The position numbers were made by a program, and so were the translations under genes. From a virus, in the IMG/VR virus record IMGVR_UViG_3300031951_001192, positions 1 through 23,929 of that record: DNA of 23,929 bases. One strand, written 5' to 3'. Of the stretch, positions 1 through 9,226 are shown piece by piece. Each line of letters begins with the position of its first letter. Position 1 is the first letter of the stretch. The notes beneath the pieces are model-generated. The model was given only the letters and a program-made list of their open reading frames with translations. It ran no database searches and had not been told where the DNA came from.

Positions 1-139
1 CGGCGGCGAGGGCGGTGCGGAGGATGGCGGCATAGTCACCAGACTGACGCACTTCAGACCAGTCACGGTTTCTTTCAACGATTCGCAGCACAGCCTCCAC
101 CACCTCGCGGGGCAGCGTGATGTTGTCTCGGTCGGTCAT
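1..139 (-). CDS. Small phage protein, C-terminus beyond the window edge
   Basis: I do not recognise this gene. The first 46 residues are visible, starting MTDRDNITLPREVVEAVLR, and the frame stays open to the window edge. Its ATG overlaps the stop of the upstream gene in an ATGA arrangement at 136-139, which fixes the start. The visible part looks like a short amphipathic helix (PREVVEAVLRIVER) followed by a polar stretch. The opening MTDRD resembles the MSDRE and MNRED openings of the neighbouring small genes, which fits the set of short early phage proteins at this end of the operon. No motif gives a function. Confidence 0.7.
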   Translation of the reverse strand, partial: MTDRDNITLPREVVEAVLRIVERNRDWSEVRQSGDYAAILRTALAA

Positions 140-456
140 GTCATGTTCCTCCCGATCTCAGCAGCAGCACGGACGATGGCTCGGCGGGTGGCGGCAAGAG
201 GGTCGGGGACGGCTTCCCACACAGGATCGTTGCTTTCCTGAAACGGCAAGTCACGCAAATCGTATAGCCCCAACTTCACCGCCAACCGCAACGCATCGCC
301 GTCGTCGGTGAGGGGGTTCCAACGTGCACCGCAAGTGCATAAATCGTCGTAATCCCAGAACGCACAATGGTCGTCGTGCTTCCAGTCTTTGTTGTCAGGC
401 TTGTAGTCAATCCCCGCCGCCTTCGCTGCGAGTTCCAACAGTTCACGGTCGCTCAC
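136..456 (-). CDS. Hypothetical early phage protein, 106 aa
   Basis: I prefer the GTG at 456, giving MSDRELLELAAKAAGIDY, because it sits behind the repeated GGAGGTGCAGCC ribosome binding site used by the next three upstream genes. The frame is also open to another GTG at 585, which would add 43 residues. The N-terminal helix (DRELLELAAKAAGI) resembles the opening of many small phage proteins of unknown function. The middle holds HDDHCAFWDYDDLCTCGARW, with three cysteines and nearby histidines, so weak metal binding is conceivable but unproven. The C-terminus (DPLAATRRAIVRAAAEIGRN) is helical. It overlaps the downstream gene by ATGA. Confidence 0.65.
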   Translation of the reverse strand: MSDRELLELAAKAAGIDYKPDNKDWKHDDHCAFWDYDDLCTCGARWNPLTDDGDALRLAVKLGLYDLRDLPFQESNDPVWEAVPDPLAATRRAIVRAAAEIGRNMT

Positions 457-468
457 GGCTGCACCTCC
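453..468 (-). repeat. Gene-junction repeat, copy 1
   Basis: Read on the - strand this is GGAGGTGCAGCCGTGA: Shine-Dalgarno sequence, spacer, GTG start and the overlapping TGA of another frame. Identical 16-base copies lie at 582-597, 761-776 and 955-970. Here the upstream reading frame that would end EVQP at the TGA is broken, so only the start function is clearly used. Confidence 0.85.
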
Positions 469-585
469 TTGCTGATCGCGTTGCGGCAAGTTATACTTCT
501 CCGCGTGGAGGAGGCTGGTTTCTTCCGAAACAGCACCAACGGGCCGGGATGTCAGTCTCGGCCCGTTTTCATTTGTGTCGCTCAC
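457..585 (-). other. Interval between two junction repeats: hairpin or decayed mini-gene
   Basis: This 129-base interval lies between junction repeats 1 and 2, where a gene would be expected. From the GTG at 585 the frame runs in phase into the next gene, so it could encode a 43-residue N-terminal extension (MSDTNENGPRLTSRP onward). The frame that would finish in the usual EVQP stop is interrupted by a TGA soon after 585. The interval also contains the hairpin at 538-567. It may be an extension, a broken small gene or a non-coding regulatory spacer; the sequence does not decide. Confidence 0.4.
538..569 (+). terminator. Hairpin with T-tract, terminator-like on the + strand
   Basis: A 12-pair stem with one G-T pair (538-549 with 556-567) encloses the loop TGTCAG and is followed on the + strand by TTTT. 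On the - strand, the direction of the surrounding genes, the same stem has an A-C mismatch and no T-tract. It therefore looks like a terminator for antisense (+) transcription, or a structured element inside the - strand message. No + strand gene ends here. Confidence 0.45.
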
Positions 586-597
586 GGCTGCACCTCC
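582..597 (-). repeat. Gene-junction repeat, copy 2
   Basis: Identical GGAGGTGCAGCCGTGA on the - strand. It encodes the last residues (VQP) and TGA stop of the gene at 582-764 and provides a ribosome binding site and GTG at 585. Confidence 0.85.
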
Positions 598-764
598 TCG
601 GGAATCTGTCGGATCGTCACGGTGTCATTCCACACAGGCTCTTGCCCACGACGCATCCACCCCTCGCGCACCATCAGCACAGGACGAGCGTATTGCGGGT
701 GATTCACCACTTCGGTCGCGGTGACGCGCCAATCGGCAGCAAATTCGTAGTCCTCGCGGTTCAC
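582..764 (-). CDS. Hypothetical early phage protein, 60 aa
   Basis: Not recognised. It starts at a GTG (MNREDYEFAADWRVTATEV) behind the repeated GGAGGTGCAGCC site and ends in EEVQP, where the last residues and stop are encoded by the next copy of the same junction repeat. The stop TGA overlaps the next GTG (GTGA). The protein is short and mixed in charge, with several aromatic residues and no cysteines or membrane segment. The first codons (GTGAACCGCGAGGAC) are identical to those of the gene starting at 1212, suggesting duplication or exchange of start regions. Confidence 0.65.
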   Translation of the reverse strand: MNREDYEFAADWRVTATEVVNHPQYARPVLMVREGWMRRGQEPVWNDTVTIRQIPEEVQP

Positions 765-776
765 GGCTGCACCTCC
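761..776 (-). repeat. Gene-junction repeat, copy 3
   Basis: Identical GGAGGTGCAGCCGTGA. It ends the gene at 761-958 (VQP, TGA) and starts the gene at 764 with GTG. Confidence 0.85.
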
Positions 777-958
777 TTCGGCTTGTGCAGGTCGCAGACA
801 TAGTTTTTGTTGGTGAAACGTCTATAGTCTTGAGTCTCGGAAACCCACGGCGGGAGAATGATGCGACACAAGCCAAATCGTTCCAAATCGTCAGGGCTGG
901 CATAAGGCTCGGAATAATCGAAGAAATACTTGCAGTTCGCACAACGGTTCTTGCTCAC
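761..958 (-). CDS. Cys-rich small protein, possible zinc binder, 65 aa
   Basis: The frame opens further upstream, but the GTG at 958 behind the GGAGGTGCAGCC repeat is the likely start, giving MSKNRCANCKYFFDYSEP. It carries CxxC (Cys6, Cys9), then a Cys in FGLCRIILPPW and a fourth in NYVCDLH. Four cysteines spaced in two pairs suggest a small zinc-knuckle-like fold, an inference from spacing only. It ends in KEVQP, encoded by the next junction repeat, with a GTGA overlap to the following gene. I cannot assign a role. Confidence 0.7.
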   Translation of the reverse strand: MSKNRCANCKYFFDYSEPYASPDDLERFGLCRIILPPWVSETQDYRRFTNKNYVCDLHKPKEVQP

Positions 959-970
959 GGCTGCACCTCC
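955..970 (-). repeat. Gene-junction repeat, copy 4
   Basis: Identical GGAGGTGCAGCCGTGA. It ends the gene at 955-1212 and starts the Cys-rich gene at 958. A diverged fifth version (GAGGATGTCGCCGTGA) lies at the next junction, 1209-1224. Confidence 0.85.
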
Positions 971-1212
971 CCTCGCTTGCGGATGGCGGCGGCTGCGGCT
1001 GCGGATGATGGAATACCGTACTCCGCCCAACCATCACACACCTTCGCACACGCCTCACGTTCATGGGCGGCGACGAGGGCGGCGAAGCGTTCAAGTAACT
1101 CATCGACCATGTGATGCGTATGGAAGATGCAGTTGGGCTGGTGTTGTTTGGCTTTCTCATCAACAACAAATCCCGCCTCCCTCGCCATGCGAATGATGTC
1201 CTCGCGGTTCAC
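955..1212 (-). CDS. Hypothetical early phage protein, 85 aa
   Basis: The start is taken as the GTG at 1212 (MNREDIIRMAREAGFVVDEK) because that GTG overlaps the TGA of the upstream gene, as at neighbouring junctions; an ATG at 1233 is an alternative. The pattern of MAREAGF near the N-terminus, HMVDELLERFAALVAAHEREACAKVCD in the middle and an alanine-rich tail is common among small phage proteins of unknown function. The middle is strongly helical and could be a short coiled coil. It ends GEVQP in junction repeat copy 4. Confidence 0.75.
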   Translation of the reverse strand: MNREDIIRMAREAGFVVDEKAKQHQPNCIFHTHHMVDELLERFAALVAAHEREACAKVCDGWAEYGIPSSAAAAAAIRKRGEVQP

Positions 1213-1442
1213 GGCGACATCCTCACAGCCCATATCGTAGCGGCAATAGCCGCCAGAGTCATGACAGCCAGACAGATGCTCAAGAACGTTGTCACTCGGT
1301 CTGCCTTGCGGAGCATCCCGTCCATCACGATGAACTCCTTGTTCCTGCGAAACAGCGAATCCTTAAGCATAAAGTTCTCGCGCATGAGACTACGAATCTG
1401 TTGGTTAAGACGGTCCTTTGAATACTCTGGTTCCTTCTCCAT
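1209..1442 (-). CDS. Small single-pass membrane protein, 77 aa
   Basis: Begins with ATG behind a strong GAGGAGGAG site. Residues 1-50 are charged and probably helical (KDRLNQQIRSLMRENFMLK), a likely coiled coil. Residues 52-72 (TTFLSICLAVMTLAAIAATIW) form one hydrophobic segment ending just before the C-terminus. This suggests a tail-anchored inner-membrane protein with its helical part in the cytoplasm. Position in the early operon argues against a holin or spanin, but its role is unknown. It ends in a GTGA overlap with the next gene. Confidence 0.75.
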   Translation of the reverse strand: MEKEPEYSKDRLNQQIRSLMRENFMLKDSLFRRNKEFIVMDGMLRKADRVTTFLSICLAVMTLAAIAATIWAVRMSP

Positions 1443-1451
1443 AACTCCTCC

Positions 1452-1577
1452 TCACAGTCTGTTGTTGATCCAACGGATGACTAGATACAGCAGCGATGCA
1501 GCGGCTACGGTGGCCGCGAATGCACGGATATACCCGTCCAGTCCTATGATGGTGTCAGCAAACTCTAGGTCGCTCAC
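1452..1577 (-). CDS. Small membrane protein, 41 aa
   Basis: A short gene starting at GTG (MSDLEFADTIIGLDGY) that overlaps the TGA of the upstream 42-codon gene as GTGA, the arrangement used at neighbouring junctions. An in-frame ATG at 1592 would add five residues. Residues from about 19 to 36 (YIRAFAATVAAASLLYLVI) form a plausible membrane helix, followed by RWINNRL. GGGGGA lies 7 bases before the GTG. It sits next to another small membrane protein gene, so the two may act together. No family recognised. Confidence 0.6.
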   Translation of the reverse strand: MSDLEFADTIIGLDGYIRAFAATVAAASLLYLVIRWINNRL

Positions 1578-1702
1578 CAGTAGTTCCCCCATCGCCCAAG
1601 CCTTCCTCGGCTACAGCGCCAGTTCGGGGGCGGAACCCGGCACCATGCGTAATGGGCTTCTTGTTCTCGCCTTCTCCACCAATTGAATAAAGACCTGAAC
1701 AT
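1574..1702 (-). CDS. Trp/Arg-rich small protein, 42 aa
   Basis: A short gene starting at ATG 1702 behind a near-ideal GAGGAGGAGAT site just after the terminator-like hairpin at 1721-1740. The product begins MFRSLFNWWRRREQEAHYAW and contains six tryptophans and many arginines, ending GRWGNYW. Its TGA overlaps the GTG of the next gene (GTGA), which supports it as real. The very basic, Trp-rich composition could mean nucleic-acid or membrane-surface binding. No homology recognised. Confidence 0.5.
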   Translation of the reverse strand: MFRSLFNWWRRREQEAHYAWCRVPPPNWRCSRGRLGRWGNYW

Positions 1703-1711
1703 ATCTCCTCC

Positions 1712-1740
1712 TCAAGAGAAGGGGGAGGTTTCCCTCCCCC
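1712..1740 (-). terminator. Intrinsic terminator or attenuator
   Basis: On the - strand GGGGGAGG, loop GAAA, CCTCCCCC (1740 down to 1721) is followed by TTCTCTT. It lies directly after the stop of the gene at 1747-1986, with a strong ribosome binding site following. The tail is interrupted by C residues, so partial termination is more likely than a full stop. Confidence 0.6.
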
Positions 1741-1746
1741 CATGTG

Positions 1747-1986
1747 TCACGCCACCCGCTTCTTGCTGAACTTCTTCATCAGGTTCAGCACCTGACGGAC
1801 TTCCTCAACGGTCTGAGAGATGGCGGCTTTGGACATACCCGCTTCTTTGGCTCGTGATTCCCAAAAAGGGACCACATCGTCTGGGATATCTCCATCGTTA
1901 TATCTAACATAGTACGCGACATCTTTGAGGATGCTGGAAGTCAGACCGTCACGCGCAGCCTGTTGCTCAAAGGTCAAAGTAGACAT
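1747..1986 (-). CDS. Hypothetical protein, 79 aa
   Basis: Starts at ATG behind GGAGCG, almost touching the end of the DUF3310 gene, so the two are probably co-translated. The product begins MSTLTFEQQAARDGLTSSIL and is mostly helical, with a central segment rich in acidic residues and prolines (NDGDIPDDVVPFWE) and a basic tail (LMKKFSKKRVA). No known motif is visible. The hairpin at 1721-1740 follows it, so it may be the last fully expressed gene of the upstream segment. Confidence 0.7.
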   Translation of the reverse strand: MSTLTFEQQAARDGLTSSILKDVAYYVRYNDGDIPDDVVPFWESRAKEAGMSKAAISQTVEEVRQVLNLMKKFSKKRVA

Positions 1987-1988
1987 GA

Positions 1989-2426
1989 TTACGCTCCTTT
2001 ACGCTTGTTGATTTCACGGTTGAGATAGAACTTGGCCTTCTCCAGATCTTGGATCGGGTCCACACCTTCCTTCTTACCTGCACGGACGATGTACTTGATG
2101 ACACACGCAAGCAGATGGTTCAGGTCCTTGGCCTCGATGAAGTCGAGGGTCTCGATGCCACCCGCCGTGTAGTGCGGGGGATGGTTCACGGGGTCAGCCG
2201 GGAGCGGGACGGAGCCGGGGACAAGGGCTTCTCCCGGATAGGTGACTTCCACCCACTTCTGCTTCGCCTTCTTCGGACGTCCGGGCTTCTTCTTGGTCTT
2301 CGCCTTGGCCTTGCTGCGGACCACGTACACGTATGCCGGGGACACGCCCATCTTCTTGGCGATGGCCTTGGGGGCGGTACCCTTGTCGAGCAGCGCCAGA
2401 ATCTTCTCAGTCTTGGTCTTCATCAT
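1989..2426 (-). CDS. DUF3310-family protein with N-terminal HTH and AT-hook-like segment
   Basis: Residues 79-137 carry the DUF3310 signature (DPVNHPPHYTAGGIETLDFI, KYIVRAGKK, DLEKAKFYLNRE). This phage family includes proteins annotated as nucleotide kinase by relation to T7 gp1.7; whether this one has that activity is unknown. Residues 4-36 (KILALLDKGTAPKAIAKKMG) look like a helix-turn-helix of the kind that follows a recognition helix in phage regulators. Residues 46-55 (KKPGRPKKAK) match an AT-hook core. The combination suggests DNA binding in addition to the DUF3310 part. Two adjacent ATGs make the exact start uncertain by one codon. Confidence 0.85.
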   Translation of the reverse strand: MMKTKTEKILALLDKGTAPKAIAKKMGVSPAYVYVVRSKAKAKTKKKPGRPKKAKQKWVEVTYPGEALVPGSVPLPADPVNHPPHYTAGGIETLDFIEAKDLNHLLACVIKYIVRAGKKEGVDPIQDLEKAKFYLNREINKRKGA

Positions 2427-2440
2427 TTCATCCTCTTTGG

Positions 2441-2740
2441 TTACTGATTGTTCATCTCATCAACAAACTTCTGAAGTTCGGGGCCTTCCTCCAAAAACTT
2501 CAGTCGCTGATCTTTCTCAATGCCACGGCGTACAAGAAACCCTTTACTAAGCAGTTTCTTGAGGCGCTTGTTCAAAGTGCCAAAAGATGCCAAAGTGGTA
2601 CCACCACCAAACTCGGCGGCATTTACCTCTCCAGAAACTTTATTACGCCTGATCACTTCTGCAAGGAACTCGATATCGATAGCATCCAAATCATGCTTAT
2701 GCGCGATAAGAAGTACCTTTGCCAACTTCTCTACGTCCAT
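2441..2740 (-). CDS. Winged-helix (MarR-like) DNA-binding protein, 99 aa
   Basis: The ATG at 2740 has an AAGGAG site at good spacing and is preferred over the in-frame ATG at 2776. The C-terminal half (TLNKRLKKLLSKGFLVRR, then KDQRLKFLEEG) has the helix-then-wing shape of MarR-type winged helices, in which the recognition helix is followed by a beta hairpin. The N-terminal half is helical and could dimerise. It is a candidate for the protein that binds the palindromes in 12046-13857, but nothing in the sequence links them directly. It overlaps the upstream winged-helix gene by about 44 bases. Confidence 0.65.
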   Translation of the reverse strand: MDVEKLAKVLLIAHKHDLDAIDIEFLAEVIRRNKVSGEVNAAEFGGGTTLASFGTLNKRLKKLLSKGFLVRRGIEKDQRLKFLEEGPELQKFVDEMNNQ

Positions 2741-2960
2741 TAGAACTCCTTCGTATTGAATAAAAATTCCATCCATCTCGCCTATATCTCAAATAGATAA
2801 AACCATTCTGTTCTAACCATCTGATGTATCTTGCTGTATGTATATGAGTAAACCCAAACACCTCCGCTATCTGTCTGACACTAGTTGCATACCGGGATGA
2901 CATCCAACGCAATATGCGCCTAGCCACTCCCTGACTGTTCTTCCTGCGGTGTTTTATCAC
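2697..2960 (-). CDS. Winged-helix protein, up to 87 aa, start uncertain
   Basis: The segment RQIAEVFGFTHIHTARYIRW followed by LEQNGFIYLRYRRDGWNFYSI looks like a helix-turn-helix with a wing, as in small MarR/ArsR-like regulators. The frame opens at GTG 2960 with no good ribosome binding site, inside the end of the upstream nuclease gene; the GTG at 2927 and the ATG near 2903 are no better. The last 20 or so residues overlap the start of the next gene. Overlap at both ends and weak signals leave the boundaries uncertain, though the protein core is convincing. Confidence 0.5.
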   Translation of the reverse strand: MIKHRRKNSQGVARRILRWMSSRYATSVRQIAEVFGFTHIHTARYIRWLEQNGFIYLRYRRDGWNFYSIRRSSNGRREVGKGTSYRA

Positions 2961-4433: not shown

Positions 4434-4862
4434 TTATTCAACAGGCCAAACGTACGGCAGGTCAGGAGCCTCGCTCCATCCATACTGCGCGTAAAACACA
4501 GGATCTTTACGTAACAAATTGCTGCGATGGGAGGCATGGAACACTTCATCGCCAAGCCAAGGCGGCGGTATGCTTGGATGCCCCTCTGCCTCATATGCGT
4601 CCCGCATGGCAAGGAAGTATTGGCCAAGCGTATCGTTATACCCACGCTCTACCCACTCTTTGCACATGGCAAGGCCGTACGTGGACAACTCCAACTCATG
4701 TCCTCGCCACATCTTGGTAGCAGGATGGTTGACCCACCCTCCCTTGGACTTACCCAAAGCAAGCAATATCTGTTTGGTCTCTACGCGCTGCTTGCCAAGC
4801 CTCCGGTAGTCCAGCATGGAGGCTGACGTCGCATAACTAGGATCAGGTAGGAATGTCTGCAC
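4434..4862 (-). CDS. Pyrimidine-dimer DNA glycosylase-like protein (MSMEG_6728/Pyr_excise type)
   Basis: The order MQTFLP, then LDYRRLGKQRVETKQILLAL (18-37), GGWVNHPATKMWRG (41-54), YGLAMCKEWVERGY (62-75) and HASHRSNLLRKDPVFYAQYG (109-128) matches the family of T4 endonuclease V-like proteins, whose relatives remove UV-induced pyrimidine dimers by cutting the glycosyl bond. In T4 the N-terminal Thr does catalysis; here Met1-Gln2-Thr3 precedes, so the mechanism may differ. A role in phage DNA repair is inferred. GTG start, with GAGGAG 10 bases upstream; it overlaps the previous gene by 20 bases. Confidence 0.75.
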   Translation of the reverse strand: MQTFLPDPSYATSASMLDYRRLGKQRVETKQILLALGKSKGGWVNHPATKMWRGHELELSTYGLAMCKEWVERGYNDTLGQYFLAMRDAYEAEGHPSIPPPWLGDEVFHASHRSNLLRKDPVFYAQYGWSEAPDLPYVWPVE

Positions 4863-6736: not shown

Positions 6737-6958
6737 TCACTCTTCACCCTTCAACAAACAAAATGCTCGGGCTTCTTGAAACGTCGCTAATTGCTTTTCT
6801 CTCCGTCTAAATCGCGGTCCTACAGCCAACGGTACCCACTTTGTACAAAATATTAAGTGGAAGCCAAATCCATCGTTTTTTATATCTAAAATTGGATGTA
6901 TGAGCCATATCTTTTTTCTGAACTTCCTCGCTCGGCGTTTTGCACGGTTGATAGCCAT
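6737..6958 (-). CDS. Small basic protein inserted in the MoxR/VWA module, 73 aa
   Basis: The ATG at 6958 shares its A with the upstream TGA (TGATG), so it is translationally coupled to the VWA gene; a longer frame from 7042 lies within that gene and is rejected. The product starts MAINRAKRRARKFRKKIWLI, very basic, and continues with hydrophobic and aromatic segments. The DNA is richer in A and T than both neighbours, suggesting later insertion between two genes that usually adjoin. No family recognised. Confidence 0.6.
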   Translation of the reverse strand: MAINRAKRRARKFRKKIWLIHPILDIKNDGFGFHLIFCTKWVPLAVGPRFRRREKQLATFQEARAFCLLKGEE

Positions 6959-8133
6959 CACACGCCTCCAATGTGTACGCTTTTGCCAACCTTTGATTCG
7001 ATGTTTTGTGACGTGATACCCCATAGCGTCGGGCAGTCCCATCCTTCACCCCATGAACATACATAACCGTCCGTGAGGATAACGGCGCAGTCGGCTTTGA
7101 TCCGCTTGCCTTTCATGTAGTCCACGATGCACTGCGGGTCTGTGCCACCGCCCCCTGCGGGCTTTGTCCTGCTCAAGAGCGAGTCGTATTGGTCGGGCTT
7201 GTACACCTCATGGGCACACACTCTTGTATCCCAGTACATCAGGTGTACTTCCTCCGGCTTGACTGTCTCGCATATACGCACAAGATTGCCGATGAACTGC
7301 GCCACTTCCCGCATGCCGATAGAACCTGACATGTCGATGGCGCACACCAGAATCCCCATGCGCTCGGAGATGCTCGACGGCATGTACACATCTTGGGCGA
7401 TCCACCTACGGGCTGGTCGTCGCCATGTGCTTTCATCCCTGTCTGCACAGGTGCTGGTGATGAACTCACGCATGGCCTCACGCCAGTCCACACGGGACTT
7501 GAGTACATCATCGATGCTGCGTGGGACATTGCCGCTCATGCGGCCTGCAAGTATCTTGCCCTGTCGCAACGCTTGGTCGATGTTGTTGCTGAGTGTGATC
7601 TTGTCCTGCTCGGACATCTCCTCGGCATCATCCCAGTCGTGGTGGTCCAGACTTTCGCCGCCCCCACTGCCGCCCCCACTGCCGCCCCCGCCCGGTGGTA
7701 GGTTCTGTGTCAGCAGGCGGTACACGGTACCCTCGTCCATGCCCCGGTACTTCACGTCATAGCAGCCACCTTCGGGAAGTTTCACATCCTTGCCATCCGG
7801 GTCGCTGTCCACGATCATCAGGTTGATGACGTAGTCACAAGCCATGTTGGCTATCTGTGCGTTCTCCTTGTAAAGAGCCTTCCACACGGTCAAGTGTCTG
7901 AACACCTTGTGCAGGTTCTCGTGCAGGATGAGACCCCGCAGTTCCTGCTCCGACAACTTGTCCACGAACTTGCGCCCATAGAACGCATCACGTCCGTTGG
8001 TGGCCGCTGTAGGCATATCGTCGCGCACTTCGGTCTTGCCGATCATGAAGACCCCGGAGTACAGGCAGTACTTGGGGCTGTTCATCAGCCAGACGTGAGC
8101 GCGCTCTATCTTCTGTTCAGCAGAGAGTTTCAT
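6958..8133 (-). CDS. HExxH metallopeptidase-like plus VWA domain protein (DUF2201 type), 391 aa
   Basis: Residues 1-145 resemble the DUF2201 N-terminal putative metallopeptidase domain, with HENLH at 71-75 fitting HExxH. A glycine/serine linker (148-159) joins it to a C-terminal VWA-like domain with a complete metal-ion adhesion site: DMSGS at 267-271, Thr in GGGGTDP at 327-333 and Asp in TDGY at 354-357. Proteins of this type pair with MoxR AAA+ ATPases, which use the VWA part as adaptor to remodel or activate a partner protein. Here the ATPase gene lies immediately upstream, 16 bases away. The ATG has AGGAGG at four bases. Whether the peptidase is active is unknown. Confidence 0.85.
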   Translation of the reverse strand: MKLSAEQKIERAHVWLMNSPKYCLYSGVFMIGKTEVRDDMPTAATNGRDAFYGRKFVDKLSEQELRGLILHENLHKVFRHLTVWKALYKENAQIANMACDYVINLMIVDSDPDGKDVKLPEGGCYDVKYRGMDEGTVYRLLTQNLPPGGGGSGGGSGGGESLDHHDWDDAEEMSEQDKITLSNNIDQALRQGKILAGRMSGNVPRSIDDVLKSRVDWREAMREFITSTCADRDESTWRRPARRWIAQDVYMPSSISERMGILVCAIDMSGSIGMREVAQFIGNLVRICETVKPEEVHLMYWDTRVCAHEVYKPDQYDSLLSRTKPAGGGGTDPQCIVDYMKGKRIKADCAVILTDGYVCSWGEGWDCPTLWGITSQNIESKVGKSVHIGGV

Positions 8134-8149: not shown

Positions 8150-9226
8150 TCAGAACATCCACTGATTCTTCAACGCCCAGTCCTTGAACTTGCGGTTCGT
8201 GATGCAGAACGACTGCTTGCCTGACTTCATGATGGACTTGGCGAACAACGCCTGCCACGGACCTTCCATGCGCTCGATGTAGTCCATGAACGGGTCAAGC
8301 GTATCCTTATCGACACGCGATATGGCACCGAACACAGCGATGCACTTGGCCACCGGATCGTCAGGCAACTTCGCTGACTTGGGCGATGCGATGATGCTGT
8401 CCCATGTCGCCAACTTGTCCGCGATGGTGAGGAACGCCTGCATGTCACGCGCAGCAGCCTCACCGATAGTCCCAGCCAGCGTGGAGATGGTCAGCGCTTC
8501 GCCCAAAGATGTACGCATCTTGACGATGTGGCTGGCCTTCTCAAGCGAGCGTGGCGTGACCACCGCACCTTGTCCTGCCCGTCCCGGATGGTTGATGTAC
8601 GGGTTGTCCTTCTGCGATTCGTCGGTGAACGATGCAAGCGCGTGCGGAAACTGCTTGACCCATGCGATGACTTCGGGCGCGACATCCGCGTTGATGGCGA
8701 ACTCTTCGACCCACTCATCGGCTGTCGGCTTACGGACTGGCAGCACACACAAACGGTTGCGAGCGTGCGCCTCAAGGATGTCACCGATGCCCTCGCTCAT
8801 CTTGTTCGTCGTGCCGAACACGATGGAATCGGGGTGCAGATACGCATCACCGATACGCTTCTCACCATTCATGAGCGGCAGCAGCGCGTTCTTGACGGCT
8901 TTCATGGCTTTACCGATTTCGTCCAACATGATGATGACAGGCTTGCCGTGGTGCAATTGAAACCTGCCGTTTGGCGCGAACTTGGTCACACGTGTACCGT
9001 TCTCATCGACCGTGAAAGGCAGCGCGATGTCACCCAAGTCGAGCAAAGTGCAGTCCAGATACACTGGGATGTGTGATGGATACGCAGCCCCGACTACCTT
9101 GAGCATGGCTGACTTGCCGATACCCATCTCGCCTTCTGCGATGAACGACACATCCTTGCCACATGCGATGACGGCACGGGCGAACTCTTGCAGTGAGACC
9201 TCACGGCCCAGATTGATAGCACTCAT
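8150..9226 (-). CDS. MoxR-type AAA+ ATPase, 358 aa
   Basis: Walker A GEMGIGKS (32-39), Walker B VIIMLDE (97-103), sensor-1-like FGTTN (137-141) and arginines in EAHARNR (152-158) that could serve as arginine finger identify an AAA+ ATPase of the MoxR group. Such ATPases form hexamers that act as chaperones with VWA-domain adaptors. The VWA/metallopeptidase gene follows directly, so the two very likely work together. The start has AGGAG at good spacing. Host proteins of this group (for example RavA with ViaA) are not normally accompanied by an HExxH domain, so the phage pair is closer to DUF2201-linked systems. Cytoplasmic. Substrate unknown. Confidence 0.9.
   Translation of the reverse strand: MSAINLGREVSLQEFARAVIACGKDVSFIAEGEMGIGKSAMLKVVGAAYPSHIPVYLDCTLLDLGDIALPFTVDENGTRVTKFAPNGRFQLHHGKPVIIMLDEIGKAMKAVKNALLPLMNGEKRIGDAYLHPDSIVFGTTNKMSEGIGDILEAHARNRLCVLPVRKPTADEWVEEFAINADVAPEVIAWVKQFPHALASFTDESQKDNPYINHPGRAGQGAVVTPRSLEKASHIVKMRTSLGEALTISTLAGTIGEAAARDMQAFLTIADKLATWDSIIASPKSAKLPDDPVAKCIAVFGAISRVDKDTLDPFMDYIERMEGPWQALFAKSIMKSGKQSFCITNRKFKDWALKNQWMF

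Follow-up and report, generated by a model that had tools for sequence, protein, structure and literature searches.

Small phage genes are shuffled at a 16-nucleotide joint in which the end of one gene and the translation signals of the next lie in the same element. We observed that the joint is repeated, in one orientation and largely in the phase of overlapping reading frames, that homology between contigs breaks at its edges, that a cassette can be present or absent, and that the same cassettes are shared across unrelated backbones. Taken together, these data are, in our judgement, probably best explained by a self-contained gene joint, with short-homology recombination between non-allelic joints moving whole genes. 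It is an old dispute whether phage mosaicism at gene boundaries arises by random cut-and-paste followed by selection, or by recombination at short shared 'linkers'. The repeated junction also offers a simple way to locate, in metagenomic phages, arrays of small genes open to exchange, which are likely sites of accessory functions.

The Joint in the Window

The window, namely the whole stretch of DNA analysed (23,929 nt, virus record IMGVR_UViG_3300031951_001192), carries a run of small genes of unknown function on the − strand at its low-coordinate end. Here, the 16-mer GGAGGTGCAGCCGTGA is found four times without mismatch, on this same strand, at 453–468, 582–597, 761–776 and 955–970, precisely where the original prediction had placed them; no further copies with up to three mismatches were found across the window. 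At this tolerance, shuffled sequence gave a mean of 0.41 copies and never reached four and, in the 20 records in which all the joints lie on one strand, the reversed control pattern gave 0 matches, which excluded a chance origin of the repeat. The copies are not embedded in a single long repeat, as the identity of family D1 drops to 62–76% over 34 nt.

In the upstream frame the joint reads GAG-GTG-CAG-CCG-TGA (E-V-Q-P-stop), while for the downstream gene GGAGG is the Shine-Dalgarno (SD) sequence and GTGA, 7 nt on, the overlapping start, so that the two genes overlap by 4 nt and the start codon is GTG. The copy at 955–970 encodes the EVQP-stop of the small gene 955–1212 (−; family F7, MNREDIIRMAREAGF...EVQP), whose joint is followed elsewhere by at least three other genes, and supplies the SD and GTG of gene 761–958 (−). 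The latter, a 65-aa cysteine-containing gene of family F6 with different genes after its joint in contigs L074 and L112, ends with EVQP and the stop of the copy at 761–776, where the 60-aa gene 582–764 (−; F11) starts; this is followed by F5 in L214 and L219 and by F13 in the window. The copy at 582–597 closes gene 582–764 in the same way and provides the GTG at 585 of the next segment. In these three copies both readings are realised, and the proposal that stop, SD and start are united in one element therefore stands for them; it fails at 453–468, which starts gene 136–456 (−; 106 aa, PHROG 5086, unknown function), the last gene after the array, but where the upstream frame is not closed. The interval before this copy is 129 nt, i.e., 0 mod 3, whereas the other two, 194 and 179 nt, are both 2 mod 3; from the GTG at 585 the frame GGA-GGT-GCA-GCC-GTG (GGAAV) passes through the joint into the next gene, giving a 149-aa ORF, and the VQP frame before the joint has just 28 open codons.

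The 129-nt segment is 1 nt longer than its homologue in L019. This segment (F13, 469–597, −; 469–581 between the joints) is almost the same as in L019 over its first ~70 nt, which include a strong hairpin at 538–567, AACGGGCCGAGACTGACATCCCGGCCCGTT. Its 3′ half has diverged, and the 43-aa ORF found in L019 is disrupted in the window by a 1-nt indel. On the + strand a T-rich tail comes after the hairpin, as in a terminator. F13 may represent an RNA/DNA element rather than a gene.

The sequence at 1209–1224 (−), GAGGATGTCGCCGTGA, had been considered a diverged version of the joint. With five mismatches and GCCGTGA as the sole common string, it is instead an ordinary overlapping stop/start junction and not a joint copy. 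The neighbouring genes are unrelated, as had been proposed, and sort into separate families, which rules out the tandem duplication of one gene.

The array was also found in the record IMGVR_UViG_3300031758_001493, where all four joint copies fall inside an 11,894-nt alignment to the window at 99.9% identity; since a second record carries all of them, the array is no assembly accident of one record. Assembly chimeras are unlikely also because the same adjacencies recur in several samples; moreover, 16 bp is shorter than the usual assembly k-mers, which counts against chimeric assembly.

Gene Orders at the Joint in Other Contigs

A search of IMG/VR retrieved at least 119 stretches with the 16-mer, of which about one in seven contains 2–6 joint copies, and 44 stretches with a 21-nt extension of it. 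The joint, with its SD a few nucleotides before the start codon, stands in one orientation ahead of genes of different families. When both sides of the joint were translated and clustered, 20 of the 28 upstream families seen more than once had two or more downstream partners, and two or more upstream partners were seen for 15 of the 27 such downstream families. Seven different genes precede F5 across contigs, and nine four-gamete squares were found among the gene pairings, in a set of contigs chosen in part for the exact joint and made up mostly of fragmentary records. This comparison of gene order between copies supports the cassette model originally proposed, in that conserved joints have different genes between them. 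The distances from joint to joint are 2 mod 3 in 80 of 95 cases, which fits a chain of overlapping ORFs, as such a chain requires this phase.

The contigs of the window's group show how the same genes are used again in different orders: the order is F7-F6-F11-F13-PHROG 5086 in the window, X-F6-F11-F5 in L219, F34-F6-F7 in L074, F20-F7-F28 in L077 and F34-F13-F5 in L019, with shorter runs F6-F5 in L112, F11-F5 in L214, F20-F5 in L216 and F7-F5 in L114. In a second group, of 26 contigs, the same joint precedes a different set of genes, and single records contain as many as nine joint-type junctions. In a third group, F9-joint-F14 is found in seven contigs, and F9-joint-F19-joint-F14 in L215; L119 and L215 differ by a 365-nt unit, consisting of a gene and one joint, and are 99% identical upstream and 92% identical downstream of it. 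As a side observation, the joint comes after a RecT-like gene in L086, L215, L043, L070 and L035. In this third group it stands between the RecT-like gene and an exonuclease-like one (DUF3799, PDDEXK), which comes next in L086 and its relatives; the extra gene F19 can be placed between the two.

Homology Ends at the Joint

In pairs of contigs sharing only one neighbour of the joint, identity beside the joint is ~0.95–0.98 towards the shared gene; towards the other gene it drops to ~0.25–0.35 within three nucleotides. Homology is lost within ~3 nt of the joint in 95 pairs with a common upstream gene and in 61 with a common downstream gene, these pairwise counts being non-independent events. For example, L084 and L102 are identical at 60 of 60 positions upstream of the joint and random thereafter, and L053 and L214 are identical at 60 of 60 positions downstream.

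An all-against-all alignment of 128 non-duplicate contigs gave the same picture: of the 1780 interior homology ends, 297 coincide with a joint, where random positions would give 5.3, and four complete cassettes common to different contigs have both ends at joints. When an alignment reaches a joint, homology ends there in 87% of cases, compared to 10% at SD-starts without overlap and 39–53% at other overlapping junctions.

Exchange between Unrelated Backbones

The window encodes on the + strand a terminase large subunit (PHROG 38), a portal (PHROG 1216) and a major head protein (PHROG 371); the closest named terminases, 48–58% identical, are those of phage 023Pt_psg01, Phage DSL-LC04 and Pelagibacter phage HTVC027P. 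Two records, G010 and G017, have a terminase of the window type at 58% identity, and their terminase/portal region aligns to the window at ~82%. By contrast, G007 differs from both in its terminase (PHROG 5902/2), portal (PHROG 156) and head protein (PHROG 283) families, with no backbone DNA aligning. Nevertheless, G007 shares 127 nt at 100% with G017 and 145 nt at 98% with G010, and the latter block begins, to within one nucleotide, at the first base of the joint. Thus, cassette blocks with 97–100% identity are common to phages with unrelated terminases and portals. Both this exchange and the natural presence/absence allele pair bear on the dispute about mosaicism.

Controls and Other Repeated Junctions

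The contigs above had been selected in part by the joint itself. In a joint-blind control, loci were retrieved with the sequence of a single cassette gene: the F1 loci contained 24 distinct junctions and 11 upstream families, with the exact joint in 17 of 24, and the F5 loci 8 junctions and 6 upstream families, with the exact joint in 7 of 8. In L498, L501, L502 and L506 a chimeric junction, CGGGTGGTGGAYGTGA, is located just before the F1 gene; it has the appearance of a crossover product formed within GTGAGCGAC alone, with the start of F8 joined to F1. A further set of 80 contigs was fetched solely for carrying a relative of the PHROG 5086 gene; here, SD-overlap junctions repeated at least twice were found on 37 of 160 strands; mirrored sequence gave 2 of 160.

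An architecture-matched control 16-mer, GGAGGTGACGCCGTGA, is equally common in IMG/VR (at least 120 stretches). It is multi-copy in 2 of 107 contigs, as compared to 15 of 112 for the joint, and accounts for 16 homology ends against 0.2 expected, homology having ended at 55% of 29 cases. As the control marks homology ends as well, the effect is in part one of gene boundaries at large: exchange occurs generally at boundaries of this architecture, and more so at the repeated joint.

A private variant, GGAGGTGAAGCCGTGA, plays a similar part in a different phage set, in which 16 of 112 contigs are multi-copy and 123 homology ends were counted against 2.8 expected; L138 has seven copies at up to one mismatch. 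In L138 and L140 (~7066–8004) the copies precede small genes, and the run ends at a PHROG 5086-type gene, as it does in the window. Of the isolated phages that carry PHROG 5086, Acidovorax phage ACPWH alone shows a loose repeat of a junction (AGGTGGTGCAGCATGA, three copies at up to two mismatches); because gene order is unchanged in its relative ACF1, the case is uninformative. The 21-mer gave three matches in bacterial genomes; all were single and outside arrays, and a host assignment from them was rejected.

A Possible Mechanism and Alternative Explanations

In the mechanism we favour, stop codon, SD sequence, 7-nt spacer and overlapping GTGA start would form one functional unit of 16 nt, whose copies, all head to tail, separate non-homologous small genes in a variable region of several unrelated phage groups. 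One cassette would consist of a gene plus one joint, making each gene plug-compatible. Since every junction carries the same 16 bp, short-homology recombination between joints is possible: non-allelic joints of one or two phages would recombine, whole genes would be deleted, inserted or swapped, and any joint-by-joint product would have a new order with correct stop, SD and start. We infer that the joint is the very homology that recombines, that recombination begins in it and that translation is coupled across it.

As to the chemistry, single-strand annealing by a phage recombinase is probably the likeliest route. Rad52-like phage recombinases are known to carry out relaxed homologous recombination at short or diverged homology (PMC3945230) and would be candidates for the exchange at the joint. 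The minimal pairing segment (MEPS) is 23–27 bp for Red-beta and 31–34 bp for RecA (PMC3945230), and the fact that 16 bp falls short of both counts against recombination through the joint alone. The effective homology is often longer, owing to GCGAC downstream or, in the second group, to a common C-terminal tail upstream, such as ...RQRAEAFLRTLGKWEEVQP. RecT matches were found in 5 of 20 records (G006, G014, G018, G026 and G027), while ERF and YqaJ were found in none of these 20, many multi-copy records being fragments; RecT and YqaJ were not found in the window.

The same short length is in line with a different explanation, namely that illegitimate recombination is random, that only products with a working stop, SD and start survive, and that the joint hitch-hikes as a good coupling sequence. 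That the control 16-mer is likewise a break point, and that homology ends so often at other overlapping junctions, also speaks for such a filter. On the other hand, the linker TGCAGCC is needed neither for the SD nor for the start, yet the exact 16-mer recurs beside many unrelated partners; other junctions (GGAGGTGCAGGGATGA, CGGGTGGTGGATGTGA) work in the same arrays, and the control is far less often multi-copy than the joint. For these reasons we regard selection on random products as unlikely to be the explanation. Even less probable, in our opinion, is that the joint is a translation-control element, similar to the start-associated sequences (SAS) of Cluster K phages, read by a phage or host factor at gene starts, with its conservation being regulatory and the shuffling incidental: although it sits at the SD in one orientation and is conserved in bases beyond the SD, as in SAS, many genes of the same arrays do not have the exact motif, one gene family can have other junctions, and homology stops exactly at the motif. 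We give almost no credence to integron-like mobile cassettes with a site-specific recombinase acting on the 16-mer. Single genes arrayed after a short invariant site, and the clean presence or absence of a cassette in L215 and L119, would suit them; however, the joint has no inverted repeat or stable hairpin, sequence variants serve as joints too, and no integrase was seen among the window proteins scanned against Pfam, the record being a fragment.

Returning to short-homology recombination between joints, a broader and more tentative reading, which we hold to be possible with less confidence than the mechanism itself, is that many tailed phages use a private exact joint as an exchange address, by which small genes move between unrelated structural backbones; such a cassette system would need no integrase, the translation signal itself serving as the homology for recombination. 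The two candidate roles of the 16-bp linker are separable by mutation.

Comparison with Known Systems

The statement that no such joint had been described was too strong, as precedents exist in the SAS of Cluster K, in the promoter early stem-loops (PeSLs) of T4-type phages and in the ATGA chain of the lambda nin region. SAS, found in Cluster K mycobacteriophages and Cluster EF Microbacterium phages, are short conserved SD-containing repeats in one orientation in the non-structural region, with a 13-bp consensus GGGATAGGAGCCC, or GGGAAAGGACCCC in EF; their genes mostly have a gap of more than 50 bp from the upstream gene and ATG starts, and about half of the sites are linked to 17-bp inverted repeats, named ESAS (PMC3203893, PMC7302621). 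The joint likewise holds an SD in one orientation ahead of unrelated genes, but differs from SAS in its sequence, in overlapping both genes by 4 nt with a GTG start and most intervals in overlap phase, and in the documented gene exchange. No ESAS-like inverted repeats adjoin the joints, the only inverted repeat (I4, 538–567) lying inside one segment.

According to the account of PeSLs in PMC4503421 (citing Arbiol 2010 and Comeau 2014), these are repeated intergenic elements, each a promoter with a stem-loop, between small non-essential genes, and are said to mediate shuffling. On that account they are nearest to the joint in evolutionary role, as modules are shuffled at both, but the joint, a translational element, lies within coding sequence and is not an intergenic promoter with a stem-loop. 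No promoter or terminator was found at the joint: a scan of window positions 1–2800 for sigma-70-like promoters gave 0 matches, and the one joint tested showed no stable structure or stem-loop.

The nearest in architecture, as far as it is described in PMC8022706 (citing Kroger and Hobom 1982), is lambda ninR, an exchange-prone region with a chain of interlinked small genes, in which stop and start overlap and the SD lies in the upstream gene, as at the joint. In lambda, however, the junctions are of the ATGA type, their flanks differ and no 16-mer is repeated. The joint departs from SAS and from PeSLs in at least one defining feature of each, and the nin chain is without exact repetition; the joint is thus set apart from all three. 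What is new relative to these precedents is the exact repetition of a translational joint and its demonstrable location at exchange boundaries.

Other Features of the Window

A stretch of 18 nt (GCCGTGAACCGCGAGGAC) is identical at 750–767 and 1198–1215, where two genes that differ in the rest of their sequence begin (MNREDY... and MNREDI...), and is possibly the trace of a crossover just inside the gene start. The − strand also encodes a DUF2201 putative metallopeptidase/VWA-like protein beside an AAA ATPase (6958–8133 and 8150–9226), a pair of the MoxR/VWA type, and a phage-encoded pyrimidine dimer DNA glycosylase (PF03013) at 4434–4862.
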